DNA of 64,000 nt from Eucommia ulmoides (Eukaryota; Streptophyta; Magnoliopsida; Garryales; Eucommiaceae): the NCBI GenBank assembly GCA_016647705.1, contig CM028336.1, positions 4,898,001 through 4,962,000 of the forward strand, written 5' to 3'. The notes beneath the pieces are model-generated. The model was not told the DNA's origin. It saw only the letters and a program-made list of their open reading frames with translations, and ran no database searches. How positions within the stretch are numbered: the first letter of the stretch is position 1; the number at the start of each line of letters is the position of its first letter. The translations under genes and the position numbers were made by a program. This document shows, in pieces, positions 1 to 64,000 of this stretch.

Positions 1-1735
1 CTTAAAGATAAAATATCATATCAAAAATAGTCTAAATTGTTGAAGATATTTTTCGGTAATACCGACTAGAAATAATTTAGAATATCGAGTTAGCAATTAT
101 CTTTGGTTCCTCCTATTTAATTAGCCAAACATTTTAACTAAATATCCAAGTTCTATGACAACAATGGCAAAATTACAATAATAATATCAATAACACATTT
201 TATTAATACTTGAGATTCAAAATATTTTTACAGATACAAGGCTTAATGTAATAATAAAATATTGACTATAAGACTTACATCAAATAATTTTCCATTAGCA
301 TTATAACCAAATTGTTGATGTCAAATAATGGTTTATTACAACAGTAAGGTCTGGTTAGGGTATCTTCGTCTTTTTCGTGCTGAGGTGAAGTTGGAGAGGT
401 CCGAGATGGGTTCTGATTAATCAAACAATCTGAGAAATCTTGAAGTCCGAGATTAATCCTTGCTCGTCCTAAGATGAGCTCCAAGCTGGTACCTACACTA
501 AGGACCCACCGGGGTTGTACCCGGCGTGTCCCCTCCGACGTGAGAGTAAGAGCTCGGAAAAATAATATAAGAGTGCTTTGAAAAGCAATTACCTTTTTCA
601 ACACTGTTCACATTTCTGTTTTATAGGTGGTGGTCTGATTAGCGTTTGGAGGATTAACGACCTAAATTGGGGTTATTACCCTAAGCTTGGTACGTGACCA
701 TTGTGCGGGCACGTGGAGAGATTAGCCTGTGGGCTTGGGCTTTTTGGCCTTCTGAGCAGAGGCCCATGGGTGGTATGTGTACGGTAGCTGACAGGCGGCC
801 CAGCATACAACATTAGCGGGCTTTCTGTTCATTCCTTCGGTTCATGAACTCATTTCCCAGCTCTTGTAGACAAGATGAGACAGGCATGGGATATTTTCAC
901 ATAAGAGTTCGTTGAATTGAGTTCCGACCTGGGGAGTGCCGAGTTGGGAATATCCTGGGCTGATAAAAGGTTTCCCCAACCCGGAAGCTCTTCTTGCCGG
1001 ATATTACCAAGGATGCCTTCATAGACGTGACCGATCTGAGCTGGGTTGGGTCCTTGGTCAGCGGAGTCTTCGTGTTTCGTCATCAGTACGACCGGGTCCC
1101 ACTTGGGACTCGTTTACACCTGGCAGTCTTCTATTGGAAGTTTGAGGATAACCATTTTTACACTCATTAGTTTCTAATACTTATTTTTAGAAGATGGTGA
1201 TCTACCTGTTGTAAAGTCATGGCTTTAGTAAGTGGGTCTTTTACATTAAACATTGTGTCTACTCTCCTAATGTCGACATTATTTCTCCCAATGATTTTAT
1301 GAATCAAATGGAAACGTCGACTATGTGTTTGGATTTTTTTATGAGATCTTGATTCTCTTACTTAAGATATAGTATCATTGTTGTCACAATATAAAAGTAT
1401 CGATGACTCAATACTTGGAACCACCTGAAGTTAAAAATGAATTTCTTAGTCCATATACCTTTCTTAACTATGTCGGAAGCGATAATGTATTTGGTCTTAG
1501 TAGTGTAATCTACAATTGTAGTTTACATACAACTCCTTCAGCTAATAACCTTCCAATTGTAGTTTCACAACCTTCCAGTATTCGAAATCTGGATCTCCAT
1601 GATATTTGCTGCTCAATCCAATAACATAATTGATATTGTGTCTGGTACATCATTGATTTATATAAATCTCGAATATCAAACATGTTTTCGAATCTATTTC
1701 TGATTAACATATCATATACACACTATTGATTTTAC
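1..1735 (-). mobile_element. Ty1/copia fossil, 3' part, unit 1
   Basis: Broken Ty1/copia-type LTR retrotransposon remnant read on the minus strand. The part at about 1183-1720 has copia RNase H character, and the left part (1 to about 313) resembles the adjoining LTR. A segment of about 0.85 kb (roughly 314-1166) separates the two and may be a solo LTR of another element. The same fossil lies 5' of RLK exon 1 in the other three units, so it predates the array. It is a decayed copy with several breaks, and its left end lies outside the window. Confidence 0.7.
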
Positions 1736-2071
1736 TTTTATGTTTAAATAAAACTATTTTTTTTAATTTATTTTTTCATATAAAAAATAAACAAAAATAG
1801 AGGTTGGCAAATGATGCCTAAAATCAATTGAATCAAACATTGGCCACTAAAGGGTCATCCCAAAAAGACTCAAACTACACTTAGTGGGCGATTTAAGCAA
1901 CTTTATAATCAATAAATAAATAAATAAAACGTGTATTTTATAATCAATTTAAGCAACTTGAAAGTAAATTAGGGGAATTTGGTTGGCATATATGTATATA
2001 TGTGTGTGTATATATATATATGTATATGTAGGAGGGGCTCTAACCACTACTGGTTTCACCAACAAGAATTT

Positions 2072-2159
2072 ATGGAGATGATGATGAAGAGGGGTTTGAT
2101 GGGTGTTTTTTGGGCTCTTGTTCTAGTAGTTCATGCCCAAGTTTTTGAGGATCAATCAA
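2072..2159 (+). pseudogene. Orphan signal-peptide exon 1 of an LRR receptor kinase (unit 1)
   Basis: This 88-nt stretch matches exon 1 of the intact receptor kinase at 48827-48914. It encodes a start Met, basic residues and a hydrophobic core ([18 protein letters not shown]), ending in FEDQS. The donor reads TCAA|GTTCCT here against TCAG|GTTCCT in the intact gene. No kinase-gene exon 2 follows: the sequence runs through intron-1-like DNA to about 4715 and then into the 3' flank of QOR1. The TATA block found in the other copies is missing upstream, where the sequence jumps from the conserved GTGGGC motif to ATTTAAGCAAC. I read it as a gene remnant; expression is unknown. Confidence 0.8.
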
Positions 2160-2204
2160 GTTCCTATTCTTATGCTTATCTGTACTTATGAGCAAAAAAA
2201 AATT

Positions 2205-2520
2205 TCTAAGAGGTTTTTTCACTTTGATCCTTCGAAGTTTTGGAGAAATTTCAATTTACGTTTGTACTTTTAATTTAAACATATTAAATTCTGAAATATC
2301 CAAATCGTATGTCTCTACGTCATTTTCTATGACGGAATTCACTCAAGTGGGGTGATTCCGTATTTGATATGTGATTGATTTCTGTCAATTAAATTGATGG
2401 AATGACTTATTTGACACGATTTTGATACTTTAGAGTTTAACAGGTTCAAATTGAAAGTATGTGGGGTCAAGTGAGATTTCTCCAAAACTTAAGGGGTCCA
2501 AAGTGAAAAAAACCTCTAAA
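2205..2520. mobile_element. MITE-like element in the RLK intron 1 remnant
   Basis: A segment of about 0.3 kb with terminal inverted repeats of roughly 45 bp. The left end reads GAGGTTTTTTCACTTTGATC, and the right end read in reverse begins GAGGTTTTTTTCACTTTGGA. A full copy occurs at the same place in unit 4 (about 48960-49275), and truncated copies occur in units 2 and 3, so it inserted before the array formed. Confidence 0.65.
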
Positions 2521-4715
2521 AAATTGCATTTTAGTTTTTCACATTTTGATTTTTTTAGAAATAAAATTCTAATAGACAATCAAAAATCATGAATTTTAAA
2601 AATATAATATAAATTAATTCAGGTTTTTTGAATGCTCAAGTTACCTTTGTTTGGATGGAAAAATAAGAAGAAAATTATGATTAAAACTGAAAAAAAAAAT
2701 TGAAATGGAGAAAAAATTGGAGGGAAATCAAAATGGGAAGGCAGATGTACGATTTTTTAAGTAATTTTTTCATCCTGTCAATTTGGGAGGAAATAGAGGA
2801 AAAATTCGGAGAGTGTATGAAAAAAAAATGACATGAAAATTATAGTTATATATTTGATAGTAAAATTTTTAACTTATTTTTATAATATATGAGGTTAAAA
2901 TAATAAATTCGATAAATACATAATTTTTTTTTCACTAAATATAAAATCTATGTTCTCCTTTTTCAATATTCATCCAAGCAAGAAAAATATGTTGATTATA
3001 TCTCATAATCACAATAAAATAGAATTAAATAATAAACTAAAGTATATACGAATATTATGACACAACAATAAAGAACGGTAATCGAATACATACCTGTTTG
3101 GGCCATCGCATGAGATTGAATCTGTCACAGCAGATTACTAACTATGTCTTCCTCCCTATGATCTAGATTTCGTGGTGGCAGCTTTCAATGGGAAGAAACT
3201 CTCAATCTAGACTAAGGAGAAGACCTAATTATTTATATTAGGATTTTTCATTGGACCCTCCTATAACGGGCTTCAACAATATCTAAAATTTATATTTGCC
3301 ACTTAACTGAGCTTCTACATAAAAGATATCACAGATCATATCAAAATATGATCATTGATTATTTGAGCTGGTTATATAATAGACTATCCATTAAGCTGTT
3401 TTTATAAAACAATTTATTCAATTAATTAGCGCACAAAATTTTTTCCAACAAAAATATTCATTTGAGAACGAAAGATGAAAATACTAAACAAACACTACTG
3501 GAAGGGCGTGTTTGAAAATCGGTAATAAAAATTACATTGTGACGAAAAATCAAACTTTTTAATAAACACTCGTTGAAATCTCGATTGCACTTTATTACCG
3601 CATACCAAACATATCCTAATAATATTGATTAACTCAATTAGTAAGAGTTGATTATTTCCACCCCTAAAGATTTAGAAAAATCTCACTTTAGCCCATGTCA
3701 TTTCCATTTGAACACATTAAACCTTAAAATGTTCAAATCATGTCAAGTCAATATTTCTGTCATTTTTATGACGGAATTCACCCACGTGGCTGATTCCGTC
3801 ATAAAAAATCACGAAGTTATCGATTTAGACTAACTTAACAAAATTTGGATACTTTAGGGTTTAATGTGTTTAAGTTAAAAGTATAGAAACTAAAATTGAA
3901 TTTTTCAAAATTTTAGAGGCAATGTGCAAAAATCTCTTATATTTAAGAGGCACTTACCGCTAACTTCTAAATTGCTGTGGAAACTATCAAACAAATCCAA
4001 TTAAAAAAAAATCACTAATTACTTCTCTTGGCATTTCGTAGAATTTTCTCATATTAATGAATCGTTACCTTCCATACACATTAACACTCCTAAAACACAT
4101 AACAAAATATGGTAATAAATTACCAATAAAACTGAAAATGAAACCTACAATTTCTATCAATTATGATTGTTATTCATTGATTTTGATAAACCACAACGAT
4201 TTATAAATCATTATCTTAATAATGAAATATTGATTTATTTTTTTTGGAGTTCTGGATATGATACATGTGAATGTTATATATAACATTAACTATGATTTTA
4301 ATGTTCATTACAATCTTTGAGCCCACATGAATGTTGAGTATAACATTCAGTGCAATACAAATAATATCAGTTAATGTTAATAATAACACAAATTATATGA
4401 ACGTATTAAATGTAACATGACTTACTGATAAATGTAATTTAAATGTTGAATGTAACACTCAACTGTATTACAGTTTGATAATGTATAAGACTGTATTAAA
4501 TGTAACATGAATGTACAAATCTGAAACTAATAAAAAAATAGTGAAAGTGATATCATTTTAAAGACTTATTTAAACAATTCGGAATATATAATTAGATCCT
4601 GAAAAAAGAATGTGTATAAAAATAGTTATTTTGATTTTAATTAAATAATTTTATTGTGAAACCATTGAATATAAAAAATCTCAATCGCGCGGATCTCGCA
4701 AGTTATAAGGGCAAT
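2521..4715. other. Remnant of RLK intron 1 (unit 1)
   Basis: Non-coding DNA collinear with intron 1 of the intact kinase gene (about 49275-50828). It shares the stretch around 'aatagacaatcaaaaatcat', a second MITE-like block at about 3650-3965, and a field of imperfect palindromes such as AATGTTATATATAACATT at 4260-4520. Similarity fades at about 4700, where the intact gene has its exon 2 acceptor, which suggests that exons 2-12 were deleted from this unit. No coding potential is visible. Confidence 0.65.
4260..4520. repeat. Cluster of imperfect TGTTA..TAACA palindromes
   Basis: Several short imperfect palindromes of the type AATGTTATATATAACATT, AATGTTGAGTATAACATT and TGTTAAATGTAACA occur within 260 bp. 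The cluster is repeated in the intron 1 remnant of unit 3 (about 30370-30670) and in intron 1 of the intact RLK (about 50330-50600). The same motif class fills the 2-kb insertion at 14460-16443. Confidence 0.7.
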
Positions 4716-5302
4716 TTCTCATATAATTTGGTATTTTTTATTTGGTTAATCAATTGATAATTGTTTATACATTTGGGATGGGCCGCATAAAAATTTCACA
4801 CACCACTTCGAAGGCGGTTAATTTCAATTATTTTGTAAACACTATTTGGAAACATTACGCAAATAACAACCCACACAAGCCCTAGTTTTAGTTCTAATAA
4901 TGCATGCCTTCAAGCCATTAAACAAGATTATGATTTATGACCAAGCATGGTACACATTTATTCAAAATGGGTTCTACAAATCTTCCGTCATCATATGACC
5001 AAACATTTGTTCAATCCCATAATCACCAGTCTACCAACACCTCCTAAATAAAACATAGCACACATTTGTTCAATCCAGTAATTCATAAACAATACCCAAA
5101 AAGTAGTTCTAAAACTCACTTTGTTTAGCGTTTCTGTTTCCAGATTTTTTATTCCATTTCTGCTCCCATCAAGGATCCTGTTTGTTTAGTGTTTTTGTTC
5201 CCAGAAATCCAGGAATCAAAACAGAAGTATGGGAAGAAACAAAATATGTTCTGGGAAACAGAAACAGAAAACTGAGAATAGAAACACTAAACGAACACAA
5301 CC
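4716..5302. other. 3' flank of QOR1, shared with QOR2
   Basis: Non-coding DNA matching the 3' flank of QOR2 at about 30846-31413. The part next to the stop codon (about 5120-5300) is built of TGTTTAGTGTTTCTGTT-type sequence and its complement, resembling a small PIF/Harbinger-like element. No gene is seen. Confidence 0.6.
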
Positions 5303-8300
5303 TTAATTCGCAGAATCGGGTATGAGCACAACAGAACCAGTTGTTTTTCGATTTTCGAGATCAGCGTGGGCTTGGGCAGCCTGAGATAAAGGGTAAGTAT
5401 GATTTACTCGAACCTTCAAGACACCCGAATTGATTAGGGAAAACAACTCTCCGGCGGATCCAAGAAGCTCCTCACGTTTTGTGGTGTATTGCATTAGAGT
5501 AGGCCTTGTCAGGAAGAGCGATTTTGCACCGATAGCAGAAACAGGAACAGGGTCAATAGGACCAGATGACTGCCCATAACTCACCATGTATCCGCGAATT
5601 TTCAAGCATGCCAGTGATCCCTAAACACAGATTAACTTCCCAATTCATAATTGCAAAAAGAAATATGATAACAAATCTATTTTTCGAAAATTTTACAAAC
5701 AGTTTTTGAGAATAGTTTAAACACTACAGAAACAAGGCCAAAGTTATTCAGTTCCTTAAGGTTGTGTTTGGGTAGAGGATTTTCAGTAGGGATTTCATTT
5801 GGTTAGAGGATTTTGAAATCATTTTTTATCAAATCCCTTGTTTGGGTTTTAGGAAGGAGGGATTTGCAAAATCCTTTTGGGGGTGAAATGAAATATTTCA
5901 AAATCCTTTTGGGAGAGACTGAATTTGCTAAATCGTTCGATCATCGTCTTCTGCTTCTTCGTTCTTCTGCTTCGGCTTCTTCGTTCTTCGTCGTCGATTT
6001 ATTCTTCATCGTCGATTTTGTCTTCTTCTTCTCCGTTCTTCGCCGATGTTCGAGTGATTTCGATTTCGAAATCGAACAACACGTTCAATTTCAAAAACAA
6101 AATCGATTTCAATTTCGAAATCGAAAACGAAATAGGGTTCGAAATGGAAATAGGGTTTCGATTTCTACTTCAATTTGGGTTTCGATTTCGAAATCGAAAT
6201 CAAATTAGGGTTCAAAATCAATTTCGATTTCGAAATCTAAATCGAAATAGGGTTTCGGTTTCTACTTCAATTTGGGTTTCGATTTCGATTTGGGTTTCGA
6301 TTTCAAATTTGTTCTTGGATTTGCTCGAAATCTCGATTTATTCGAGATCTCGATTTCGAAATAGCGAACGATGATGAACGGCGAATATGTTCTTGGATTT
6401 GTTCGAATTTGTTATTGGCGGATTTCTTCGAATTTGTTTTTGAGTTGTTCATCGTCTTGTCTTCATCGTGTATTTTCTTTTTTCCAGAAGTGGGATAAAA
6501 AAATAAAACCAAACATCAAATCCTTTATCTAAATACTTCAGTTCAAACAATTATCTAAATAAGAGATTTGTGAAATGAACAGATTTTGAAATCCCTTCAT
6601 TTCACAAATCCCTTGAATTTATCAAATCCCTTACCCAAACACCACCTAATTTTTGATTTTGTTCATGGAATACTTGGATAGAAACAGAACTAGAACTAGG
6701 AACAAAGAAATCAGCGAAGAATTCGGTTATGTTCGCCAAAATTAGTTTTGAAAATCTAGGAACAGAACAGAAGTAGATTCATTTTGTTCCCTTCTCCTGT
6801 TTCTGTTCTTAGTTAAACAAAAATGAAACAGAAACACCAAATCCCCATTTCGGTTGTCAGTTTTTTATTAAAGTTCCAAGAAAATAGGGAACAAAAACAA
6901 AAATATAAGGACAAGAGAAAAAAAAAAAAAATGTTTCTGTTCCACACCCATATTGTTTTGAACAAAATTCCGAGAACAAAAGATATGTTTCCGAATTTTT
7001 TTTTTCAGTTCCCAGATTACTTTATAAACACCACATAGGGCGGACAAATTCTCTGTTTTCACCATAAGAATTATTAAAACGAGGGTTTATCATTCACCTC
7101 CCCTGAGGTCTGGCATAATATCAAAGAACACGATAATGGAGGTTGTGTAAATACAATTTTGCCCTTACTTTTTCTTTGGGCATATATCATTTACCGATCC
7201 TGATGTTTAGCAAAATATCAATGACCCCCCCAATTTTTCTCATAGTATCACAAAAGGTCCACGTCGGTAACGGCCGTTAACTTGCAAATGGAAGTTGTAA
7301 AATTACATTATTGTCCTTACATTATCTACCTCTTTATTTACACAACAAAAAAAAAATCACTTTTATATCCCCTCTACGTTTTACTATGTATAATAATAAA
7401 ACTATAAACAAAATACTAATAAAATTAAGTTTGTTTCCTTTTTTTTTTTTTTTTTTTTTTTGGTGGGCATGAAATTCTGGGGACACTAGTTGGAAGCACT
7501 CAAAAGAGGAAAAAAAGAAAAAGGAAGACAAGAGAAAACGAGGGAAAAAAAAAAAAGAATAGAGGAATAAAAAAAAAATAAAGAGTTTTTGTGATAGCGA
7601 TTTTTTTGAAAAAATAATTACTATAAGATATATCCCTACAACTGTAAGAAAATTTGGGGGCAAAAAAAGGAAGAATAGATGAACAAAAGAAAAAATTATA
7701 TTTTTTTCTTTGAAGATAATAAGGGTGGTTTGTGATAAATGTCAAGGGGTAAAATGGAGATTCTTTATAAAAATTATTTGGAAATTAAAGTTTGACTAAC
7801 GTGTTAGAATCTTACGTCGAATCAATGAAGCTTCCCAAAGTAGTCGATATATGAAAGGGAATTACTCCACTTGATACCAAATGGTTTTAGGTTGGAACCT
7901 CGTAACATAGTATTGGAGCTAGGTTTGATAAGCCTCGTTCGTTTGTCCCTAATTGTTTGAACGTTTGTCTTCTTTTTTATGTTTGTTTGATCGCATTATA
8001 TGCAATGCGGGTTGCACATAGAGGGTGGGTGTTAGAATCCCACATTGAATATGTCAGGTTTCCTAAAGTAATCTATGTATGAAAGGAGTTACTCCACTTG
8101 ATACCGTATGGTTTTAGATTAGAACCTCTTAATATGATATCAAAGCTAGTTTGGAAAGCCCAGTTTCTTTGTCCTCGATTGTTTGTCTTCTCTCTTCTGA
8201 TGTTTGCCTGATTGCATCACGTGCAAAACGGAATTACACATGAGGATGAGTGTTAGAGTCCCACATTGAATTTTTAAGCTTCCTAAAGTAGTCTATATAT

Positions 8301-10461
8301 GAATAGAACTACTCCACTTGATACCATATGGTTTTAGGTAGGAACCTTCTAACATAACGCACCGTTAATATATGAGGCAATGTGATACATAAACCCAAAC
8401 TTCAAGGGTGGTCCTCGCTATTTTTGAAAAAGGGTGCATTGTGATAGTATGACAAAACTCAGGAGAGGTTAGTGATATTTACCCTTAAAACTAAGCAAAG
8501 AAGATGTATTACCTCATATGTGTCTTTTCCAACAGCATCATAGACGACATCGACCCCATTTCCCAACGTTATCTCATTGACACGAGCAACAAAATCCTGA
8601 TCCTTGTAGAGAATAACATGGTGACATCCATCTTCTTTGGCTTGAGCTGCCTTCTCCTCGGTTGAGACCGTCCCAATAACAGTTGCGCCAAGTGCATTAG
8701 CCCACTGGCACAGTAAAGAGCCAACTCCACCTGCTGCTGCATGAATAAGAACCGTATGCCCACGTTCAACCTGCATTTCATTGCACTTATAGTAATATCT
8801 ATGCAACTGCTTTGTTTCCTAAAGCTTATAAGTTAGAACCAAACACTAAAAGAGGACACTACTTCGATTCCAAGATTAACTCAAAGAAATTTGGAAGGGT
8901 TTTCATATTTTCATAGCCAAAGCCGAAAACCAAGAGTTTCAATCCCTATATTAACGGAATTACAAGTCCCCTAGTTTAAGCTGCCAGCATAAAGATTTTC
9001 GTTCAGATATTGTTTTCACTCTTCTTTTCCAGGTATATTTGTACAAAAAAGAATCAAACTTGTGTGATAAGTACACAGTCCCTAAGAGTTAAACTTATAC
9101 CTAAGAAAAAATGGAAAAACAAAGAAGAAGAATATAAAGATAAGCATTTTAGGACCATGCCAGGTATATTTGTAACATACCTTGAAGCAACGCCGGACCA
9201 GATATTCGGCTGTCATTCCCTTAAGCATGATGGATGCTGCTTTAATAGGATCGATGGAGGGGGGAACAGGCACAACCTTCTCTGCAGGAAGGATTTGCTC
9301 TTCAGTATATGATCCCATTGGAAAACCAGCATAGGCTACAAGATCTCCTACTTTTCTGCCCGTTAGTCCCGGACCCACCGCAGTCACTACACCAACTGCT
9401 TCCATTCCTGCAATTCATTTCCGAGACATAACTGGATCAAGATATGTTTTTAAATCTTTAGTGGGAGTTTCATGGAAATTCCAAGTTTTCCTTTCCCTTT
9501 ATGTAGATGCCTAAATTGTTATTAAATAAAAAACAAAAAAAAACAAGCACCTGGTGTGAAGGGCTTTGTAGGCGCGTTGGATAATCCTTTGCGGAAATAT
9601 ACATCAATGAAGTTAAGCCCAACAGCCTTATTTTTCACCTTGATCTCTCCTTCTTTTGGTTCTCCTATTTCCACATCCTCCCATTTTAGGACCTGTCATC
9701 ATTTTGATTATGTTATTCCCGACACAAATTCATCAACACCCATAAAAGATTTGGTAACATAATCAAAACCCAATCAAACACACTCAAACAGATGCGATAG
9801 GCACAACGATTGACAAACCAAAAATCATAAATGAAACTTCGCAAATAATCATGTCGGTAGCCAAATCATGCGATTTTACAATCATTTCGAATATGGCGTG
9901 CTCAAAAAATGGATATATTTATAAAAGTAAATCAGGATTAGCAAGTGAATGCACCGATCTATTCATGATGCTAGAAAATGCTAGAAAGGAGCGGTAAGAA
10001 CAACAATTATTACCCAACTTTTAACAATATGCAGAATGAAATGGAAGCAAGCGCATGATTACAAGTAAAAAGGCGGCCTCGAGCAACTTATCTATCTGAA
10101 AATCTTCAACTTATAATCTAAATGGCAAAGTCAACTGAAACATGATTAAGACCATACACTACATGAACAACGGAATTCAACTCCTAAAGAAACCAAAAAT
10201 CCAGTTCTGCAGATTAATCATTAAATATTCATCACTCGCAAACGAAATAATCATCAGCAGAAGTTCGATCAAGTTTTGACAACTTCAAATCAACACCAGA
10301 TTCGACTACTAAAACAGAAATCCGACTTAGTCCTAGCATGCGATTGCTATATGAAACAGGAAACAACCCTAGTTACAGAAAATAATAGGAAAAAAAAAAA
10401 GTTAGAGAGAGAGAGAGACCTCGGGGCCACCGCATTCATGAACCCTAATTGCTTTTACCAT
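5303..10461 (-). CDS. NAD(P)H:quinone oxidoreductase, zeta-crystallin type (QOR1)
   Basis: Five exons: 10461-10420, 9692-9551, 9407-9181, 8770-8513 and 5620-5303, all with GT-AG introns and one open frame, giving 328 aa. The protein is a zinc-independent medium-chain dehydrogenase/reductase of the zeta-crystallin group, whose plant members reduce quinones or reactive carbonyls with NADPH. It starts MVKAIRVHECGGPE. The GroES-like N-terminal half contains GLNFIDVYFRKG, the Rossmann NAD(P)H-binding loop AAAGGVGS lies near residues 148-155, and the C-terminal part contains SLFLTRP and ends in VVLIPDSAN. The chosen Met is the family's usual cytosolic start; an in-frame stop lies a short way upstream. 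Intron 4 is about 2.9 kb and carries a PIF/Harbinger-like element and a TRIM array inside a MULE-like element. It is nearly identical to QOR2 at 31414-41315 and less similar to QOR3. No disabling change was seen. Substrate is inferred from the family only. Confidence 0.93.
5760..6646. mobile_element. PIF/Harbinger-like non-autonomous element in QOR1 intron 4
   Basis: An 887-bp insertion with terminal inverted repeats GGTTGTGTTTGGGTA and (reverse of the right end) GGTGGTGTTTGGGTA, flanked by TAA on both sides (5757-5759 and 6647-6649). The three-base TWA duplication and terminal motif are typical of PIF/Harbinger. The matching place in QOR2 (near 31862) is empty, so it inserted after the two copies split. 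The interior is dominated by repeats of CGATTTCGAAATCGAAA type. Long frames there come from this low-complexity repeat and are not a gene. Confidence 0.85.
7085..8486. mobile_element. MULE-like non-autonomous element in QOR1 intron 4
   Basis: The left end (about 7089, TATCATTCACCTCCCCTGAG) is the inverse of the right end (about 8440-8486, reverse reading ATATCACTAACCTCTCCTGA). An intact counterpart at about 32285-38390 in QOR2 holds further nested insertions. No transposase is encoded; poly-A/T-rich filler lies at 7330-7740. The TRIM array at 7802-8354 sits inside it. Ends are approximate and no target duplication was confirmed. Confidence 0.5.
7802..8354 (+). mobile_element. TRIM array with three LTRs (QOR1 intron 4)
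   Basis: LTR-type miniature element. Three terminal repeats of about 105 bp (7802-7906, 8030-8134, 8251-8354) start TGTTAGA and end around TAACA. Each of the first two is followed by a sequence close to TGGTATCAGAGC, the usual plant initiator-tRNA-Met primer site, and two internal segments of roughly 120 bp separate the repeats. The 5-bp direct repeat TAACG flanks the array (7797-7801, 8355-8359). It has no coding capacity. It is shared with QOR2 at the same intron position, so it is older than that duplication. Confidence 0.8.
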
Positions 10462-10697
10462 TACTACTGCTGAATCGGATGCAGAAAATTATCTGACGAC
10501 TGTTTTTGAAGCGATTCTTGCGTTGTTCTTGTGATTGACGAAATGGCAAGTGTTGATGCGTGGTGTTTGGAGCTGAGTGAGTGAGGATATGGAGTGGCGA
10601 AGGCTCCAGAAAAACGAATTCGGCAGAAGCCAATGAGAGTAACTGTAGATAATCCCATTTTTCAGATTTCAACCCCCAAACTTTCGGCCGTCTTGTC

Positions 10698-10749
10698 GAC
10701 GTCACGAGAATAATAATTAATAAATTTTATCACATGAGATTGACGTGAC
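10698..10749 (-). promoter_or_regulatory. ACGT/TGACG motifs upstream of QOR1
   Basis: GACGTCAC at 10698-10705 and TGACGTGAC at 10741-10749 lie about 240-290 bp upstream of the start codon. TGACG cores are the known binding sites of plant TGA bZIP factors (as-1-like elements) in oxidant-responsive promoters, which would fit a quinone reductase. The same pair is kept at QOR2 (41552-41603), and GACGTCAC alone is kept in the eroded unit 2 remnant. Function is inferred. Confidence 0.45.
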
Positions 10750-10854
10750 ACACTTGGGTAAATTACATTTAACCAAATTACATGGTGACGTTGCTTTCTG
10801 CTAAGAGTTGATAGATCGTATATTACATATTTATATATTCAGGTGTATGTTTTA

Positions 10855-13298: not shown

Positions 13299-13344
13299 GT
13301 TCCTATTCTTATGCTTATCTATATTTATGAGCAATTTTTTTTTT

Positions 13345-20160: not shown

Positions 20161-20164
20161 TCTT

Positions 20165-51800: not shown

Positions 51801-54800
51801 AGGGGAGAGTCAATTGGCTCTGGAGTTTTCGTTAAATAGAACAATGAAATCGAACCTTCCGCCGCTCATCAATGCCTTCGAGGTTTACACTGTCAAACGG
51901 TTCTCGCAATCAGAAACAGATGAAAATGATGGTATGAGTCTCTTTCTCTTTCTGTTTCTCCAACATGATTCAAGCACGCCTTCTTTAACGTTCTTGGCGA
52001 TTTGGTATCGAAAGAAGCGTAATTCTAAACGTAGCAATATTCACTATCACTGCCACAATAAATATTCACCATCATCTCCGTCAACATAACAAACATACAT
52101 TGTCACAACCAACACCATAGAATATATTGACGGTAACTGTCACCACTATAACAAATATTCACTATTGTCGCCGCCGCCACCATAACAAATAATTAAAAAA
52201 TCAATAATATGTATCAAAATTATACAATTAGCAACAAAATATACGAAATTTTATTTTGACATCGATCAAAATAGATCTTCAAATTAAAATAATAAAAAAC
52301 CATGAAGAACCAAAAAAAATTGAAAACAAATCAAAACAACAAATTTGCAACTGCAAAAATTCAAATCTGGACAACAATTTTTTTATATATCAATTATCAA
52401 CACAACAAATATGTAATATATGAGTTAAAAAAATTAAAAAATCAGATCTGATAAAAAAATGGAAACCAATTTTGGAACAAGATCTGGTTTCCAGAGAGAG
52501 AGATGTCTGACTTTGTACTGAACAAATTCAGCCGGATCTGTTCGGCGCAAAGGGGAGTGGTGGGGTGGTCTTGGGTTTTGACATGGTGGTGGTGGTGGTT
52601 TGGAAAGACGGTGGTCGGTGGTGGCATGGGGTGTGGCTCCGGTTGGTGGCTGGTGGTGTTGGTGGAGCCGATGAGAAGATCATTTTTTTGTTTTTGTGTT
52701 TTAGATAGATAATGAAGTACTCCTTTAAATGTAATCGAAAATTTCTATTTTAATAATCACAACCCCTCTAGTTGTGATTATATACTTATATGTGAATTGT
52801 TTGTGATTTTATTTTTTTGAACTTTTTAGTGAATGTTATGATAAGTATGAAGTCAAGGTATGGAGTGAAAAGGAACTGGAATGGAGATCCTTGCTCCCCC
52901 AAATCTTACATTTGGCAAGGTCTTGATTGCAGCTACAATGGCGCCACTCCCCCCAGGATCATCTACCTGTATGTACGTTTATTTATTCATGGTACCTCTG
53001 AAGTTTGATCATTATTTCACTCATGGAAAATTTTATAATTGCAATCAGGGACTTGTCGTCTAGTGGATTGACTGGGGAAATTGCTCCTCAAATATCAAAT
53101 CTCACTTTTCTACAATACTTGTAAGCATATCACATATGGTTACCATTTGAATCTACGCTGATATGAGACACCCCGTGTCATTTGTTCATATACTAGGGGC
53201 ATCCCTTATAGTTTGAATAATACTCGAGACATACCTTATCATATCAATTCAGTTACCTTAGATTGAGAAACTCCCATCACATTTTATTGAAAAATACCCT
53301 TACAATGTTATTTTAGTTCTTGTTTTTGCTTTCCATTTTATCTTTTTTTTTTTTTTCCTTTTCTTTTGTTCTATATTTTGTTTCATATTTTTTTAGATGG
53401 TGTTTATAGGGGGAAAATTAAAAAAGAAAACTAAAAACCTAGAAAGCAGAAAGTAGAAAATTAAAAAAAAAAAAAAATTCAAAAACAAAAAACTAAAATA
53501 AAATATTTAAATTTAAAAAACAAAATCAAATATAACAAAAACAGAGACAGATTTTTTTATTTATTTTTTCTTTTTGTTATCTAGAAATTTTAATTTTTTG
53601 TTTTATTTTTGTTTTTATTTCCTGCTTTTTTATTTTCTAATTTTTAATTTTTTTATTTTTTATAGACACCATACACAAAAAATAAAAATAAATAAAAAAC
53701 ACCGAACAAAAGCAAAAAATAAAAAATAAAGAGAGAGAGTAGAAAATAAGAAAATTAAAAAATAAAAAGAATTATTATGTTGTAAAAGTATTCCCCCCCC
53801 CCCAAAAAAAAAAATAAAAATAAAAATAATACGGTGTCCTAGGTATTATTCAAACTATAGGGAACGTCCTCGGTATAAGGGGTGCCTCATTTGTTAACTC
53901 TCTCTCTCTCTCTAATCTTATTTCAGGGATTTGTCTAACAACAGTTTAACTGGACCATTACCCGATTTTCTAGCTAGATTGGCGTCCTTGAGGTTCCTGT
54001 AAGTTGCTATACATATAGATACACACATACGTGTATATACATATGTATACATACATGTGCATATATTTTTAATGAATCATTTTGAAGTCGTAATTCTTCT
54101 TGAGAGATTTATATTTTCATTTTCCTATCTCCCTCCTCAGAAACTTGGCCAAAAACAAGTTCTTTGGATCAATTCCGGTGGAACTCATCGAAAGAGCCAA
54201 TAACGGAACTCTATCGTTGAGGTATGTTGATCGCAAATCCATTGATAATTGGATTTCGTTCTTATGTATTGTTTAGGTAAATCAAAGTCCGCTCTATTGA
54301 TTGTGAAATTTAACTAAACATTTCTTGAACAATCTCTTTTTTTATATGTCGTGAAAAAAAAAAAAAAGTATTGACGGATACGTGCCTGACACTGCAAAAT
54401 CATGCCACTCGGCTCCATGCGAAAGAAAGAGGAGTTCTTCTCTTGTTCCGGCACTTGTATCCGCCGCCGTAATTTTCACACTTTTGACTGCAATTTTTGG
54501 TTTCTGGTGCATCAAGAGGAGTAAACGAGGTACCTACAGATAATCTATTATATGTTTCATCGTATGATATACAAAATAGCACTAAAATCATGCATTAGTT
54601 ATTTAACCCTAAACAACCACATGAATGTAATGACTTTGGCACAAATGTGAAACTTTTGGGAGGCTAATATGATAAATTGAAAAATCAAGGTGCAAAAAGT
54701 AACTCCATTTATACCTTCTAGGTGCAAGCTTTGGGTGAGAATTTTCACCCAAAAATCTTTTATAATTCAATCTCATTATCCATTCCTCTCAAATTAGTCC

Positions 54801-57800
54801 CAACTCTTAACGAAAAGACATTTTCAAGAAATTGTTTTAAGCTACTATATAGATAGACAAGGGATTTCCTGTGCCTAAAGGCACTATAACAGTAAGTGTT
54901 AAAAAATAGCTAATAAAGTACAAATACGAAACTTAAAGAATACAACAACAACTAAGCCTTTGTTCCACTCATGTAGGGTCAGCTAGTGATCGATCAAGGG
55001 TCATCCCCTTCGTCAGGTTTAATGTCATCAAATCATTTTTAATAGTTTCGTTTAACGTCTTCTTAGGTCAACCTCTCCCGCTAGTAGCCCTCTGCACTTG
55101 AATTAAACCACATTTTCTCACTGGTGCTTCTATGGGTCTTCTATGCATATGCCTAAACCATCGTAAACGATTTTCTCTTCGATGGGTGCTATTTTTAAAT
55201 TCTCTCTAATAGTTTCATTCTTAATTTTATCCATTCTCGTCTTCCCACTTATTCACCGCAACATCCTTATTTCTGTCACTCTAATTTTCTGGATATGATT
55301 TGTTTTTATCGTCTAACATTCTGAACCATACAGAAGTGCTGGTCTTACAACAGTTTTGTAGAATGTATTTGGATTCATGTCATAAAAGTTCTGACAAATA
55401 CCTAACACAACCCTCCTCCTTTACCTAGGCTTGGGACTGGCTATGTGTAAAGAATAAAGTGTCGAACACTCACAGGCGGAGTTACGAAACTTAAAGAATA
55501 TAAAACATAATTTAACTCAACTGCTTTGGAAATGGGGGTGTGAAATTTTTGGGCAAGAATTCCCTTCCCCCCCCTCCCCCCCCTCCCCTCAAAAGAAAAA
55601 TCATAATTTAATCTCATCGTTCCATTCATCTCGAATTAATCTCAAACTATTAGAATACCACATCGAATTTGTAAGACTTCCCAAAGTAGTTTACATCTAA
55701 AATGAGCTACTTCACTTAACATCATATGATTTTAAGTTGGAATCTCCTAACATGGTGGTTGTAAGTTGGAACTCCTAACATGGTATTAGAGTTAGGTTTT
55801 GGGACTCTGGTTTGTTTGTCCCTGATTGTTTAAATGTTTGTGTTGTCGCTTCTATTGTTTGATCGCACCATGTGCAAGTCGGGGTTGAGGTGGGTGTTAC
55901 TTAGAATTTCACGTCGAATTTGTAAGGCTTCCAAAGTAGTTTATATATGGAAGAAGCTACTCCACTTAACAATTAATACCCTTACCAAAAAAGACATTTA
56001 AAAAAAAAATCTTAATTATTATAGATATGGTTATTGTCTGCAATACTCTAATGAATTTTATTATGTTCTTGTTAGTTGAGAATGAGTCATTCGAATCGAA
56101 AATTCGACGGTTTACTTATCCCGAAATCTTGAGAATCACAAACAACATGGAGAGAGTTATTGGGAGAGGAGGATTCGGAATTGTTTACCATGGATCTTTA
56201 GATGATACTCAAGTTGCAGTGAAAATGCTGTCTGAAAAGTCAGGCTACAAGGAGCTCAAGACAGAGGTAAGAGATGATTCATTTTTTTTTTTTACTTTGA
56301 AGAATATTGTGAAACCTGTTAGAATCGCATACTGATCGCATACTGAATTTGTGAGACTTCCCAAAGTGATTTATATATGAAAAGAATTAGTTCATTTAAT
56401 ACCATATGGTTTTAGGTTGAAACCTCTTAACATAGGATCAGAACTAGGCTTGGGAAGTCTCGTTTGTTTGTCCCCGATTATTTGAATATTTGTTTTCTGT
56501 ATTTTGTTTGTTTGATCGCATTATGTGCACGGCGGGGTTGCATGTAAGAGTAGATATTAGAATCATATTGAATCTGTGAGACTTCCCAAAGTAGTCTATA
56601 TGTAAAAGAAATTATTCCACTTAATACCATATGATTTTGTGAGAATCATGTGATTTTTTGAGAATCATATGTTACTCCACTTGATACCATATTGATATGT
56701 GAGACTTCCCAAAGTAGTCTATATATGAAAATAGCTACTTCACTTAATACCATATGATTTTAGGTTGGAACCTCCTAACAAAACCGATGATTACAGGCAG
56801 AGATTCTGACAAGGGTTCATCACAAAAACTTGACTTCTCTTGTCGGGTATTGTCTTGAAGGCAAAAAGATGGGGCTAGTGTATGAGTACATGGCTAATGG
56901 CAACGTAGAAGAACACCTATCATGTAAAAGCCCAAGCGTCCTTAGTTGGACAGAAAGACTTCAAATTGCTACAGATGCAGCACAAGGTAACTCTAGAATT
57001 TTGGACTAAACAATAAGGCTCTGTACTCCCTGTTATATAGCTGCTCATCGGAAGAATATCGCCCTAATAAATGGGATAACTGATAGAATAAAGGAAGTTA
57101 ACAAATTTGTCAAACATGACCAAAATAAAAATGCTAAAGAATGCATTAATATTAGGGTATATTGTCTTTTACTCCCCACCATTTTCTCTAATTATCATTT
57201 TATTCACTCGACTTCCAAAATGTTCACTTTTCTTATTTCTACTTTTGAACAAAATGAGAAATTAACTTTTTTACGTTTAAATTAACGGAATATGCATGAA
57301 ATTAAATTTCCCATCCATTTTTCTGGATGAAATAGACAAGATTACTCCTTTATTTTAATTTTGATTTTTTTTAGATGAAATGTTCTTAAACAAATTAAAT
57401 TAAAAATAAAGGGGCAATTTCGTCTCTTTCATTTAAAAATTGAATAGAAAATTTAATTTCATTCATTTTTAAGCATATGTCGTTAATTTAAATAGAAAAA
57501 AAATAGTTTTACACTTTGTTCAAAAAAGGAAGTAGATAAAGTGTAATTTTTTGAAGTGAGAGTAAAATGATAATTGGACAAAATAGAAGAAGACAAAAAG
57601 CAATTTACCCTTAATGTAAATATTAAATATTCCTACAAGAACAGAAATAGAAATGTTCACCAACATGACCTTAGACTACCAATTTGAGATTTTTGGGAAA
57701 ATTATTATATTTTCCTCGAAATAATTCACGAGTAATTTTTTATCATTTTTTTAGTCTCATTTGATATCAACTAGATGTTGCATTTGTATTTGATATCATA

Positions 57801-58996
57801 GTTAATGTCAACTATATATATTGATAAAAGACAAAAAAATAAAAGACTATATAATAAGTGCCCGTTGGTGGGCATTTGCAGTGTTTCTGTTCCCAGAATA
57901 AAAATATGGGAACAAGAAATGCATTCTATAATTCTGGGAGCAGAACAGGAACACATTAAAGTTAAAGAAACTGGGGGCTTAGTAATGGAAAAAATGCAGG
58001 ATTGGATTATCTGCACAATGGTTGTAAGCCCCCAATAATCCACAGAGATGTGAAGTCTGCTAATATCTTATTGAATGAAGAACTGGGTGCAAAAATAGCT
58101 GATTTTGGGATATCCAAATTTTTCCCGATCGACGCCGGATCTTCTGTCATCACTGCAGTTATTGGCACCGTCGGTTACCTTGATCCCGAGTGAGTGCCTT
58201 TTTTTTATTTATTCCAAGACTTCAATTTCGCGCAACCAAAGCCCCCCCTTGGAATGGTATTTTTGTTAACTACGAAATTTGCTTGTCTGTTTGGTTGTCT
58301 AAATTATCCTATTTTATGATTATTTTGTATCTTGTTTCCGGCGAATTGATTTGTATATTTATTTATTTACCTATGATTTAATTCAAAAAAACATAAAATA
58401 GTTCTAGTTTAGTTAAATTTTTAACTTATATTTTATTCTAATTATACAAGGAACAAGGGTATGAATTAAAACTAAAATGGTTAACTAGCTAACCCAGGTG
58501 TTTTTAATTCTTATAATCAAACACTGAACTAAAAAAAATAATCATAAATTGATTAACCAAAAAGCCGTATTATGGATCATATACGTTCATTTGTTCATAT
58601 AGGTACTTTGAAACGAGGAAGCTAAGAGAGAAGAGTGATGTTTACAGCTTTGGTGTCGTGCTCTTAGAGCTAATCACGGGCCGATCGGCAGTTGAAAACG
58701 ACGGGGAGAGAAGCGTCAACATAACGAGTTGGGTTAAAAATTGTTACGCAACGGGTAAGGATGATGATGATGTCGGGAATGTTGTTGATCCTAGGTTAGG
58801 CAGGAATTACGAGGTTGATTCAGTTAAGGCGGCGGTTGAATTGGCAATGGAATGCGTTTCACGCACTTCTTCTTCGAGGCCGACCATGAATCTCGTGGCG
58901 GCAAAATTGGAGCAGTGTTTGGCCGTGGAGATGGCACGGAAAGAGGCACTCGTCGACAAATTCAAGATTCTAGTTGATAGTGATTTGATGGTGTGA
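48827..58996 (+). CDS. Malectin-like LRR receptor kinase (subfamily LRR-I)
   Basis: Twelve exons join in one frame of 864 aa: 48827-48914, 50829-51366, 51453-51931, 52830-52968, 53049-53120, 53927-53998, 54141-54221, 54369-54529, 56076-56266, 56797-56986, 58000-58189, 58603-58996. Order: signal peptide (to about residue 23), malectin-like domain (GFISLDCG through exon 3), the family's GDPC motif, about three LRRs (two on 72-nt exons), a membrane segment near 515-538 ([20 protein letters not shown]) and a kinase. The kinase has GRGGFG at 573-578, VAVK with Lys593, HRD with Asp687 and DFG at 705-707, so it should be an active RD kinase. Relatives act at the plasma membrane in defence and symbiosis-type signalling. 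Exon 1 is placed by its match to three orphan copies and by phase: CAG|G joins GA|TTC to give [12 protein letters not shown]. The exon 8 acceptor follows an A-tract, which is unusual. Its tail faces QOR3. No disabling change was seen; the ligand is unknown. Confidence 0.9.
48960..49275. mobile_element. MITE-like element in RLK intron 1
   Basis: Intact counterpart of 2205-2520, starting near the same distance from exon 1 and ending near 'gtgcaaaaaccacta'. The rest of intron 1 to 50828 is AT-rich, includes the palindrome cluster at about 50330-50600 and a short duplicated stretch around 'tagttttttgattttaatt' at 50713-50780. Confidence 0.6.
53165..53888. mobile_element. Foldback element in RLK intron 5
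   Basis: The left end (GAGACACCCC, later TTATAGTTTGAATAATA) is inverted at the right end (reverse reading GAGGCACCCC, later CTATAGTTTGAATAATA). The interior consists of A- and T-rich tracts that are themselves roughly inverted. No coding potential or clear target duplication. Confidence 0.65.
54943..55482 (-). mobile_element. 5'-truncated RTE-type LINE fragment in RLK intron 8
   Basis: 540 bp flanked by an 18-bp direct repeat (TACGAAACTTAAAGAATA at 54925-54942 and 55483-55500). On the minus strand it encodes the end of a LINE reverse transcriptase ([15 protein letters not shown], then [14 protein letters not shown]) with stops and frameshifts, and ends in a GTT-repeat tail instead of poly-A. 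It is a dead 3' fragment inserted by target-primed reverse transcription. Confidence 0.85.
55648..55970 (+). mobile_element. TRIM-related fragment in RLK intron 8
   Basis: Two diverged terminal-repeat-like blocks (CCACATCGAATTTGTAAGAC and a relative near 55905) surround a short interior with a TGGTATTAGAG primer-site-like sequence. Same family as the arrays in QOR introns. Edges are worn; no target duplication found. Confidence 0.6.
56317..56780 (+). mobile_element. TRIM in RLK intron 9
   Basis: Starts TGTTAGAATC, ends CTCCTAACA and is flanked by the 5-bp repeat AAACC (56312-56316 and 56781-56785). Internal repeats of the LTR sequence are present. It begins only about 50 bp after the exon 9 donor and ends about 16 bp before the exon 10 acceptor, so it makes up nearly all of the intron. 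Confidence 0.75.
57152..57614. mobile_element. MITE-like foldback in RLK intron 10
   Basis: The left end TTAGGGTATATTGTCTTTTA is inverted at the right end (reverse reading TAAGGGTAAATTGCTTTTTG), and inner segments (TTATCATTTTA) are inverted too. Non-coding; likely a terminal-inverted-repeat element of unassigned superfamily. Confidence 0.6.
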
Positions 58997-60262: not shown

Positions 60263-61146
60263 TTATTGATTGGAACCATCGGGTATGAGCAAAATAGAAC
60301 CAGATGTTTTTCGACTCTCGAGATCAGCATGGGCTCGGGCCACTTGAGATAAAGGGTAAGTATGATTTACTCGAACCTTTAGAACTCCTGATTCAATTAG
60401 GGCAAAAACATCTCCAGCGGCTACCAAAAGCTCGTCTCGACTCAAAGTATAATGCTGTAGGGAAGGTCTTGTCAAAAAGAGCGATTTTTTGCTCAGATCG
60501 GTAACAGAAATGGGGTCCGGTGGACCAGATGACTGCCCGTAAATCACCATGTATCCTCGAGTTTTCAAGCACGCTAACGATCCCTGAGAACACAATTTTA
60601 ATGTCCCAATTGGTAAATGGAAAGAACAATTCAGTTATGTTTCCAGAAATTTGTTCTAAAAATCTAGGAACAGAACAGAACATAACATAACAGAACAGAA
60701 CAGAAACAATTAGAAGATAATTACCTGAAAGGTATCTTTCCCAACCGAATCATAGACAACTTCGACCCCATAGCCAAACGTTATCTCGTTAACGCGAGCA
60801 ACAAAATCCTGATCCTTGTAGAGAATAACATGGTGACATCCATCTTCTCGGGCTTGAGCTGCTTTTTCCTCTGTTGAGACCGTCCCAATAACAATGGCGC
60901 CAAGCGCATTAGCCCACTGGCACAGTAAAGACCCAACCCCACCTGCTGCTGCATGAACAAGAACGGTATGCCCACGTTCAACCTGCATTTCCCGACAGTT
61001 AAAATCAACTTTTTTTTCCAAATGAAAATTAGTTTAATTCTGTTCAATTAAATCAACAGTTAAAGAAAGTTTATGGTGCATTTGATTAGGGAGCTGGGAA
61101 CATAAACACAAATATGAAAACAAAACAAATAAATATCATTATATAT

Positions 61147-61202
<56 letters not shown>

Positions 61203-63478
61203 GTATATGTTGCTGTTTAGCCCCAACAATTTTAGAATATTTTTTTGTGAACATAACAGAATTGTTTCCAGATTTCTATTTCTGCTCTACGTTTTCTAAG
61301 AACAGGAACAAAATTTGAGAAAAAAAAAACACTAAACAAACGCCACTTTTACTTTTATGTTCCATGAAAACTTGGACAGTAACAGAAAAATTGTTTATGG
61401 TCTTTTCCCAAAATTTTAGAACAAATTTATGGGAACAGAACAGAGAAATATTTTGTTTTGCTCCCAAGTTTTTGTTTATATTACAACAGAAACAGAAATA
61501 TGGGTCTGAACAATGAACTAGTACAGTTAACATATAATAATAAATAATTTATTGGGGCAGTTCACCGGCCCCATTAGGGGGTAAAAACTACCGTAATAAC
61601 CAAAGCTTTTGCGGGTTACATTCCAATATTTTTTGATTATCCAGTCAGATTTGCCTTTACTCATATCTAATTGCTTAAATAACACGAGATTGATTTGCTT
61701 GAGATAACTACGCCACAAAAAGTAGGGACGGTTACCGAATTGAAAATAAACCACACCACTTGCGTGTTCTTAAAATAACGATAACTTTTTTTTATATGTA
61801 AAGTTTGTTTCATTTGATTACAAATTTATGATCGTGAGATCATTAGTTTCAAAACGATTCCAGAATCAACTATTTTTTTCACCAATTAAAAAGTTCATGT
61901 TGAATTCAACATGAAAAAAAAAAAAGTATTAAACTCAACTACTACTAAATTATATAACAAAACATATACAAATGTATGTTGTTTTGAAGTTATGTTTATG
62001 GCGAATAAAAATCTGTGTTTGGATCATCAAAACGATCATTGTATCACAGTCTATTCTTAGCTTTCTAACCTTAAAAATTTGCATATAAAATACCTAAAAA
62101 TATGGAGTCGTGAGTTGACTAATATTTCAATTTATCTTTCCATTTGTGTTTAAATCAATCATTTATTTCTGATTCAAAAATATAGAAAGACTCATCGTTC
62201 ATAGTTGTATTTCAATTGAAACTTGTTTACATATCTATTGTTTTTCCATAATTAGATTGAACAATAACGTACCATAGTGATTCAACACCGTGTTATATTG
62301 AATTCAACAAATTCTAAATTCTGTAAGCTATATTTCTGAATGTAACACGGCATACCTTAAAACAGGTACGGACCAAATATTGAACCGTCATTCCCTTAAG
62401 CATGGCAGCTGCTGCCACTAGAGGATCAACGGACGGCGGAACCGGCACCACCCTCTCCGCCAACAGGATTTGCTCTTCAGCATATGAACCCATCGGATGA
62501 CCAGCATAAGCAACAATATCTCCAACTTTCATTCCGGTTAGACCCGGACCCACTGCTGTAACCACACCTACCGCCTCCACGCCTGAAAATAACCGAAATA
62601 ATTTGAATCTACACAGAACACCGATATAGATTCAAAATTGAAGCACGATTGAAGTAATGAAGAAGAAGACGACGACCTGGAGTGTAGGGAATCTTAGAGA
62701 AAATGTGAACTCCTTTACGGAAAACTAGATCGATGAAGTTAAGCCCAATAGCCTTATTTTTTACCTTCACCTCTCCCTCCTTTGGTTCTCTGATCTCCAC
62801 ATCCTCCCATTTCATAACCTGTCATCATTTCTGTTAGATTTCTATCCCACATCGATTATATGAGAGTGCCTAGACCACTATATAAGTCAAAGAAGTTATC
62901 CCAGTTGACTTATATAGTGATTTGAAAACTCTTAAGTGATCGATGTGGGACAGAAAGTTAACACCCATTCTTAAATTCATGGTTTCAGAGCCAAGATTAT
63001 GAGAATTTCCATCTCTTCCCTAGTAATCAAATCTTCCGTGCAAGTCGAGATTTACACATATCAAATCATTCATTCCCTCATATTCAAACCATCCGTGCAA
63101 ATCGGGAGTTACATGTGTTAGATTCTTATCTCACATCGATCACTTAAGAGGATTCCCAAACCACTATATAAGTTAAGTGGAATAACTTGATGGTTTTGAT
63201 TTGGGCGTAATCGATGTGGATCGGAAATCTAACAATTTCAAATTACAATTTCACAGAGACAGAAAAACAATTCAAAATTAAGCAAAGCATACACTAAGAA
63301 GTTCTTCGTGAATTCAACATAACCATCACAATCAATCCGAGTGTATGTATTTAATACCTGAGCAATAGTAACCTAATTACTAATGATTAAAGGCATATGT
63401 TACATGAATAGAGAGAAGATATAGAGAGAGAGTGACCTCAGGACCACCGAATTCATAAACCCTAATGGCTTTGACCAT
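60263..63478 (-). CDS. NAD(P)H:quinone oxidoreductase, zeta-crystallin type (QOR3)
   Basis: Exons 63478-63437, 62818-62677, 62582-62356, 60982-60725 and 60583-60263 have GT-AG introns, giving 329 aa with no interruption. The exon lengths equal those of QOR1 and QOR2 except for the last. It starts [14 protein letters not shown] and keeps the AAAGGVGS cofactor loop and SLFLTRPS, but ends LIPDGSNQ. It is the most diverged of the three copies (for example [16 protein letters not shown] where QOR1 has FRKGLSNAPTKPFTPG), and its introns share little with theirs, so it split off first. It sits tail-to-tail with the intact kinase gene, 1.27 kb between stop codons. Intron 1 contains a TRIM; intron 3 carries an AT microsatellite. 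Substrate is inferred from the family only. Confidence 0.93.
61141..61208. repeat. AT/GTAT microsatellite in QOR3 intron 3
   Basis: An AT-dominated tract with ATAC and GTAT interruptions. Short frames on both strands here are repeat translations. Confidence 0.9.
62832..63234 (+). mobile_element. TRIM in QOR3 intron 1
   Basis: A second TRIM family. LTRs span 62832-62963 (132 bp) and 63116-63234 (119 bp), both starting TGTTAGATT and ending AACA. A TGGTTTCAGAGCC primer-site-like sequence lies shortly after the first LTR. A perfect 5-bp duplication ATTTC flanks it (62827-62831, 63235-63239). The first LTR contains its own inverted repeat (CCCACATCGAT / ATCGATGTGGG). Absent from QOR1 and QOR2. 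Confidence 0.85.
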
Positions 63479-63719
63479 TGTCGCTTGGGATGATGCAGAA
63501 AACTACTCCGACGATTGATTTTGTTGGGGCGGTGGAGAAAACAGGGGATCATTGCGTTCTGATTGAGCTTCACGGAATTGAAATAGGAATTGTTGTCTCT
63601 CTCGGACTTTGTAATTGTCGCCGGCGAAGTGACGAATTGCGGTGGCGGGAGATACGCCAAAACAATTTGGTAGAAGACGACAGAGGTAATGACAAACCGC
63701 TGCATTGCTTTTTGATTTT

Positions 63720-64000
63720 TGAAAAATAAAAAGTGATATATTTTGTATTTAACTAAATTATATCCGGAATTGTAATGCCTTTTTCAAAACAGGAGGAGAC
63801 TGTTACAACTGCCCCGAGCAAGGATGCCAGTAATGGTGTGTCTCGGGATTGATGAGCTTGCTCAGGATAATGTGGTTGAGGTCTTCGACCTGCTATCCCT
63901 AATAAGGGCGACGGCTAGGGTTTGTCTACTTAGGAGTAGTAGTGCTCGATGTAGTAGTCTGCTCGGGTCACTGGTAGGTCTTCCCGGGAACCAACACACG
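63720..64000. other. Right edge of window, no gene recognised
   Basis: From about 63780 the composition becomes GC-richer (CTGCCCCGAGCAAGG, then TCTTCCCGGGAACC). This may be the start of another repeat that continues beyond the window. No supported coding region. Confidence 0.3.

Follow-up and report, generated by a model that had tools for sequence, protein, structure and literature searches.

A receptor kinase and quinone oxidoreductase array in Eucommia ulmoides, read as birth-and-death with a partial duplication

We analyzed a stretch of 64,000 nucleotides of Eucommia ulmoides DNA (assembly GCA_016647705.1, contig CM028336.1, positions 4,898,001 to 4,962,000 of the forward strand), here called the window, in which a receptor kinase (RLK) gene and a quinone oxidoreductase (QOR) gene recur. 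The DNA is plant-like, with 34% G+C. We put a probability of about 0.7 on the reading that the locus is a birth-and-death array of an RLK/QOR pair, made up of three units and an older fragment that splits the middle unit, and that its last copying was a partial duplication. This copying covered about 10 kb, from a miniature inverted-repeat transposable element (MITE2) in intron 1 of one RLK, through a deletion scar and a whole QOR gene, to a second such element (MITE1) within the first intron of the RLK that follows. Because the block ends in that intron, the QOR was copied in full and the RLK only as its promoter and exon 1. A preliminary description of the window had reported three intact QORs and one intact RLK, and splicing of the genes confirmed this, with RLK exons 2-12 found once. 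It had suggested effects of selection or dosage behind the ratio. The geometry of the breakpoints explains it, and neither selection nor dosage need be invoked, though QOR1 and QOR2 are under purifying selection. The features that carry this argument are listed below, with RLK 5' flanks labeled A1 to A4, RLK intron-1 remnants I1 and I3, the QOR genes QOR1 to QOR3, and the intact RLK gene RLK4.

1..2907, plus strand: A1, RLK 5' flank with orphan exon 1 (2072-2159) and the start of intron 1 with MITE1 (~2201-2525).
3655..13649: copy 1 of the block that was duplicated, comprising I1, QOR1, intergenic sequence and A2.
3655..4702, plus strand: I1, RLK intron-1 remnant that starts with MITE2 (3655-3939); end set by eye.
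5303..10461, minus strand: QOR1, intact, 5 exons (10420-10461, 9551-9692, 9181-9407, 8513-8770, 5303-5620), 328 codons.
10721..13649, plus strand: A2, RLK 5' flank with orphan exon 1 (13211-13298); it resembles A4 as far as the outer end of MITE1 (13649).
16444..18468, plus strand: A3, the most divergent flank copy, with orphan exon 1 (18137-18224), ending within MITE1; the BLAST match starts at 16464, the start by eye is 16444.
29771..49265: copy 2 of the same block, comprising I3, QOR2, intergenic sequence and A4 and lengthened by transposable-element insertions.
29771..30836, plus strand: I3, RLK intron-1 remnant with a deletion scar as in I1; end set by eye.
31414..41315, minus strand: QOR2, intact, 5 exons (41274-41315, 40347-40488, 39963-40189, 38405-38662, 31414-31737), 330 codons.
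46408..49607, plus strand: A4, the 5' flank of the intact RLK with exon 1 and the start of intron 1; MITE1 at ~48958-49265, LTR (long terminal repeat)-like insert at ~47010-47863.
48827..58996, plus strand: RLK4, intact, 12 exons, 864 codons, with a malectin-like domain, a short leucine-rich repeat (LRR) stretch and a kinase domain.
60263..63478, minus strand: QOR3, intact, 5 exons (63437-63478, 62677-62818, 62356-62582, 60725-60982, 60263-60583), 329 codons.

The repeat blocks were found by self-BLAST of the window, where the weakest flank match had an E value of 1.9e-79. Collinear blocks lay at the predicted places, at about 1-2.5, 10.8-13.6, 16.5-18.5 and 46.4-49.3 kb. Positions 1-2907 paired with 46700-49607, 1-2509 with 11133-13649, and 10819-13649 with 46400-49264, while 16464-17184 and 17192-18468 aligned to parts of the three other flanks. 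RLK exon 1 (88 nt) occurs four times, at 2072, 13211, 18137 and 48827; the exon at 18137 has GTG in place of the initial ATG, with in-frame ATGs directly after it. The two copies of the larger block (3655-13649 and 29771-49265) are collinear in six pieces, with divergences (K) of 0.059, 0.074, 0.097, 0.084, 0.058 and 0.050. Single 200-bp windows of the block gave K from 0.010 to 0.149, and the short end windows varied more.

We then compared the ages of the segments. Flank K values, computed without the LTR-like insert and the exon-1 core, were 0.027 for A2-A4, 0.087 for A1-A2, 0.092 for A1-A4 and 0.145-0.158 for A3 against the others (A1-A3, 0.158). In intron 1, I1-I3 gave 0.063 and each remnant gave 0.17-0.18 against the intact gene; an I1-I4 value of 0.234, which came from a longer, poorly matched stretch, was not used. 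Synonymous divergence (Ks) was 0.112 for QOR1-QOR2 (nonsynonymous divergence, dN, 0.025), and 0.613 and 0.592 for QOR3 against these two. Thus, the flanks pair 2 with 4, with 3 outside by distance, whereas intron 1 and the QORs pair 1 with 3, with 4 far outside. The preliminary description had proposed four units in the order flank, RLK, QOR. In that phase, units 1 and 3 differ by 0.16 in the flank and 0.06 in intron 1, and units 1 and 4 by 0.09 in the flank and a Ks of 0.6 in the QOR. We rejected the four-unit phase, as the same pairs of units show different ages in each segment. The segments appear to agree broadly only when the block is shifted to intron 1, QOR and next flank. The repeated order itself holds without long interruption in units 1 and 4, but unit 3 is broken by 11.3 kb and the flank of unit 2 stops at 13649.

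The deletion scar gave a second line of evidence. I1 and I3 align unbroken through the scar, and both cease to match the intact gene at the boundary between intron 1 and exon 2, to within a few bases. Since the scar and the roughly 0.6 kb after it are common to both copies, one event or series of events predates the duplication. Judged from these alignments, the RLK body was already gone when the QOR1/QOR2 block was copied. A2 ends at the block edge (13649), and therefore RLK exons 2-12 probably never followed it. What look like three RLK losses come down to a single shared deletion together with copies that are truncated or fragmentary. No second copy of RLK exons 2-12 turned up in the window, whether by blastn with the coding sequence of the RLK (E up to 0.1) or by tblastn (E up to 10). 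The other RLK matches in the window were of LRR type only, within a receptor-like-protein pseudogene at 22.9-25.6 kb. Beside A2 and A3, tblastn with all four proteins (E up to 10) found neither QOR exons nor RLK exons 2-12.

These results bear directly on the reading with which the window was first described: four repeats, separate loss of RLK exons 2-12 in units 1-3, loss of the QOR in unit 2, and selection or dosage behind the ratio. Four flanks with exon 1 and three QORs are indeed present, and the QOR pairs have dN/dS of 0.220-0.225. However, independent erosion of four units conflicts with the discordant pairings of flanks, intron 1 and QORs, units 1 and 3 share one scar beside QOR1 and QOR2, and A2 halts at the block edge with no RLK sequence beyond. 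The tree of the four flanks groups A2 with A4 at 100% bootstrap, whereas among the QORs the close pair is QOR1 and QOR2 (Ks 0.112 against ~0.6). We regard this reading as very unlikely. Its broader idea, that an old unit of a plus-strand RLK and a minus-strand QOR was duplicated locally and that most RLK copies are gone, was supported.

Another explanation is that a two-unit block doubled, [U1 U2] -> [U1 U2][U3 U4], and that A3 subsequently had a raised rate or was replaced in part. I1-I3, QOR1-QOR2 and A2-A4 are all close, as this predicts. Among the two-against-two sites in 1,597 four-way columns, the split 13|24 was favored by 37 of 44, compared with 5 for 12|34 and 2 for 14|23. This unrooted split is compatible with changes on the A2+A4 branch, and also with a tree rooted between 1+3 and 2+4 in which A3 evolved fast. 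However, the A1-A3 divergence is about 1.8 times that of A1-A2 and about 2.5 times that of I1-I3, so that the noncoding DNA of A3 would need a rate 2-3-fold faster. Moreover, a 0.85-kb insert present in A1, A2 and A4 is not in A3. Because this insert is missing and the flank distances are near-ultrametric with A3 outermost, we place A3 outside the other flanks, and a doubled two-unit block is unlikely.

We next considered the sequence that separates A2 from I3.

13650..29770: 16.1 kb separating A2 from I3, carrying A3.
14421..14459, minus strand: QOR promoter stub upstream of A3, matching 10676-10717.

The match to the QOR promoter resumes at 16464 (16444 by eye), past a 2-kb insert that is bordered by (T)AATAAT at both ends. 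This suggests that a QOR once lay upstream of A3. With a promoter stub before A3, the QOR that is missing would have been part of the A3 fragment and not, as had been proposed, of unit 2; on the far side of the 16.1 kb, QOR2 is probably the QOR that belongs downstream of A2. A2 and I3 would then probably be the halves of one unit, split by the 16.1 kb, which we infer was inserted later.

Several other sequences lie in this stretch. A 187-bp tandem repeat (2.4 copies, 13647-14100) begins where the A2 block stops. The receptor-like-protein pseudogene (22560-25612, minus strand) has an LRRNT domain and many LRRs, with an in-frame stop and frame changes, and a 72-bp LRR unit is repeated about five times in it, at 24554-24923. 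Around it is an inverted repeat of about 235 bp (20333-20567 and 27920-28154, 80% alike), which may mark the ends of a larger element.

The edges of the block led us to the two MITEs. MITE1 and MITE2 belong to one self-complementary family of ~290-300 bp, at two insertion sites in intron 1. The predicted fold of MITE2 (copy at 3656-3945) had a z of -5.75, and none of 200 shuffles was as good. By eye, there was no clean target duplication beside either element. The block edges lie within ~10 bp of the outer ends of MITE2 and MITE1, and the 16.1 kb lies between the two elements. A single interval of 0.5-1.2 kb holds the edges of the recent block, the point in MITE1 where A3 is cut off, the probable 16.1-kb insertion and a step in age: between units 1 and 4, the flank differs at 9.1% (153/1,681) and intron 1 at 15.3% (113/738; P = 1e-5). 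This clustering suggests that the MITEs were involved in the breakpoints, and on this one sequence the likely cause is unequal exchange or break repair at the MITEs.

That both block edges are outer MITE ends would also be expected if the 10-kb block had moved to a new place as a macrotransposon, by means of the outer ends of two MITEs of the same family, and a TTATT motif lies beside both ends of copy 1. However, of the two MITE ends the left one is the shorter, and TTATT is 2 bp off the left end and is common in DNA of this base composition. TTATT, the one candidate for a target duplication of the 10-kb block, was unconvincing, and no empty site was seen in the window. Such a move is highly improbable.

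The course of events that we favor is as follows. The pair that makes up the array is a minus-strand QOR facing a plus-strand RLK, promoter to promoter. An RLK body next to a QOR was deleted, leaving the intron-1 scar, before the latest copying. This duplication was local and probably tandem in origin. The older fragment, with its promoter stub and A3, would now divide A2 from I3 and QOR2 as part of the 16.1 kb. The breakpoints would have gathered in the intron-1 interval owing to the two palindromic MITEs, through unequal recombination or break repair.

Several observations weigh against parts of this account. The RLK deletion has no clean join: the ~0.6 kb after the scar (4703-5302) is in both copies and has no match in unit 4, to which similarity resumes only inside QOR exon 5 (5315 versus 60278). 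The block copies are not adjacent now, with 16.1 kb between them, and a dispersed copy is possible. No target duplication was seen at the ends of the 16.1 kb, and there was no empty site at hand. The A2-A4 divergence is lower than that of the rest of the block, and gene conversion may have acted there. The unrooted flank split does not by itself put the root on A3. The coincidence of block edges and MITEs was spotted after the fact, and the age step is moderate, with P = 0.037 when just the 344 columns adjoining MITE1 are used. Separately, the spacer at 2908-3655 had no homology to 49608-49752 at E 1e-3, and E up to 10 gave short, chance-like matches.

We also observed that the proximal promoter and exon 1 (48640-48915; copies at ~1914-2160, 13032-13299 and 17976-18225) are more conserved than most of the flank, orphan copies included. 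On the A1 branch, 1 of 229 columns in this core (A4 coordinates) changed, compared with 36 of 921 upstream (Fisher P = 0.005); on the A3 branch there were 7 changes, compared with 86 upstream (Fisher P = 0.001). The regions for this test were picked after looking at the data, and it cannot tell constraint that predates loss of the RLK body from constraint that postdates it. The count omits 48510-48640 (A1, 11 changes, and A3, 4, in 97 columns), 48916-48960 (8 and 0 in 45) and MITE1 at 48960-49160 (2 and 8 in 198). That A1 changed so little in MITE1 speaks against a constraint peculiar to the promoter. The orphan RLK promoters, with their conserved core, could drive natural antisense transcription toward the 3' end of QOR1. 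We consider it possible, but doubtful, that the MITE pair in intron 1 is a recurrent point of breakage and exchange through which the array copies the QOR with a bare RLK promoter and exon 1, possibly with antisense transcripts toward QOR1. If the MITE pair were such a point, this locus would offer a compact example from nature of palindrome-driven turnover of a gene array.

The identity of the two genes was examined through their domains. RLK4 splices into a stop-free frame with AG/GT at every inner border and matched PF12819 (E = 1e-101), LRR_1 (E = 4.3e-09) and PF07714 (E = 7.2e-45). By these domains in one open frame, its predicted product is a malectin-like LRR receptor kinase of the LRR-RLK subfamily I type. 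All inner exon borders of QOR1-3 are likewise AG/GT, with no stop. QOR1 matched ADH_N (PF08240), ADH_zinc_N (PF00107) and ADH_zinc_N_2 (PF13602), and its best solved-structure matches were 1wly (2-haloacrylate reductase, 2.1e-93), 9kuj (1.3e-89) and 1qor (3.9e-87). By the domains and solved relatives of QOR1, the predicted QOR proteins are zeta-crystallin-type quinone oxidoreductases of the MDR family, and we take them to be putative zeta-crystallin-type NADPH:quinone reductases; At5g61510 is an Arabidopsis QOR gene. Purifying selection was evident between QOR1 and QOR2 (18 nonsynonymous and 25 synonymous differences, binomial P = 2.6e-6) and on each branch (QOR1, 8 and 12, P = 0.0008; QOR2, 8 and 8, P = 0.024), where the per-branch counts omit sites at which QOR3 differs from both.

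Copy 2 of the block owes its greater length to insertions, of which three are as follows.

32625..37311, minus strand: hAT transposon in QOR2 intron 4, with BED finger, DUF659 and hAT dimerisation domains in three open reading frames.
38880..39757: insert within intron 3 of QOR2 that has TAGGGCTGGC as terminal inverted repeats and is missing from QOR1.
41673..46407, minus strand: Helitron-like insert of 4,735 bp between QOR2 and the intact RLK, with 5' TC and 3' CTAG.

The hAT transposon matched PF05699, PF04937 and PF02892 and has an 8-bp target duplication, CCCCTCTA, on both sides. The intron-3 insert is presumably hAT-like. The Helitron-like insert sits between A and T, with an empty site in copy 1; 5' TC, 3' CTRR and insertion between A and T define Helitron ends. 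Three of its internal open reading frames had no Pfam match, and it may be non-autonomous. An element at ~5760-6645 in copy 1, which we take to be Tourist-like from its ends and TAA duplication, is absent from copy 2. The empty and filled sites of these four elements support the pairing of the block copies. The 0.85-kb insert of the flanks is presumably LTR-like, as judged from its TG...CA ends; it had no clean target duplication, and two frames from its copies had no Pfam match. For the copia part of the unit as first described, the candidate is an antisense frame at ~48.0-48.3 kb that may resemble Ty1-copia RNase H.

Other repeats were also seen. Repeats of ~220 bp lie at 7801-8357 (QOR1 intron 4), 37732-38273 (QOR2 intron 4) and 55643-56784 (RLK introns 8 and 9), with a motif that we take to resemble a retroelement primer-binding site. 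In RLK intron 8, a stretch at 54950-55450 opens with ACAACAACAACTAAGCC, and a similar piece lies at ~40710; we presume the stretch to be like an Au-type short interspersed element. There were no tRNA genes in the window, and no Rfam family reached its gathering score there.

Taken together, we read the locus as ordinary birth-and-death with partial duplication, a common course for tandem gene arrays. Two linked genes in an array can survive unequally because of where duplication breakpoints fall, even if selection on both is alike, and fragments counted in the phase of a presumed unit mislead. The RLK-QOR repeat unit did not turn up in a limited literature search, which is not evidence of absence. 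Partial (truncated) gene duplicates that arise from small duplications are well described (reviewed in Katju 2012, PMC3449122). As there, the breakpoints here lie within a gene, the copy is a promoter with exon 1 and the neighbor is copied whole, but the present block also carried the scar of an earlier deletion and has MITEs at its edges. Tandem LRR-RLK clusters are likewise well described; tandem duplication of these genes is reported as frequent in several angiosperms and as scarce in Amborella (PMC5179525). RLK4 shares with the subfamily I clusters the malectin-like domain, few LRRs and the kinase, whereas our locus has one complete RLK left and a repeat unit that includes an unrelated QOR. 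Like the cacao NLR clusters attributed to unequal crossing over (PMC12405883), it combines local copies with pseudogenes in an array. The authors of that study state that they did not test the mechanism; here, in contrast, the breakpoints can be read, although in one sequence only.

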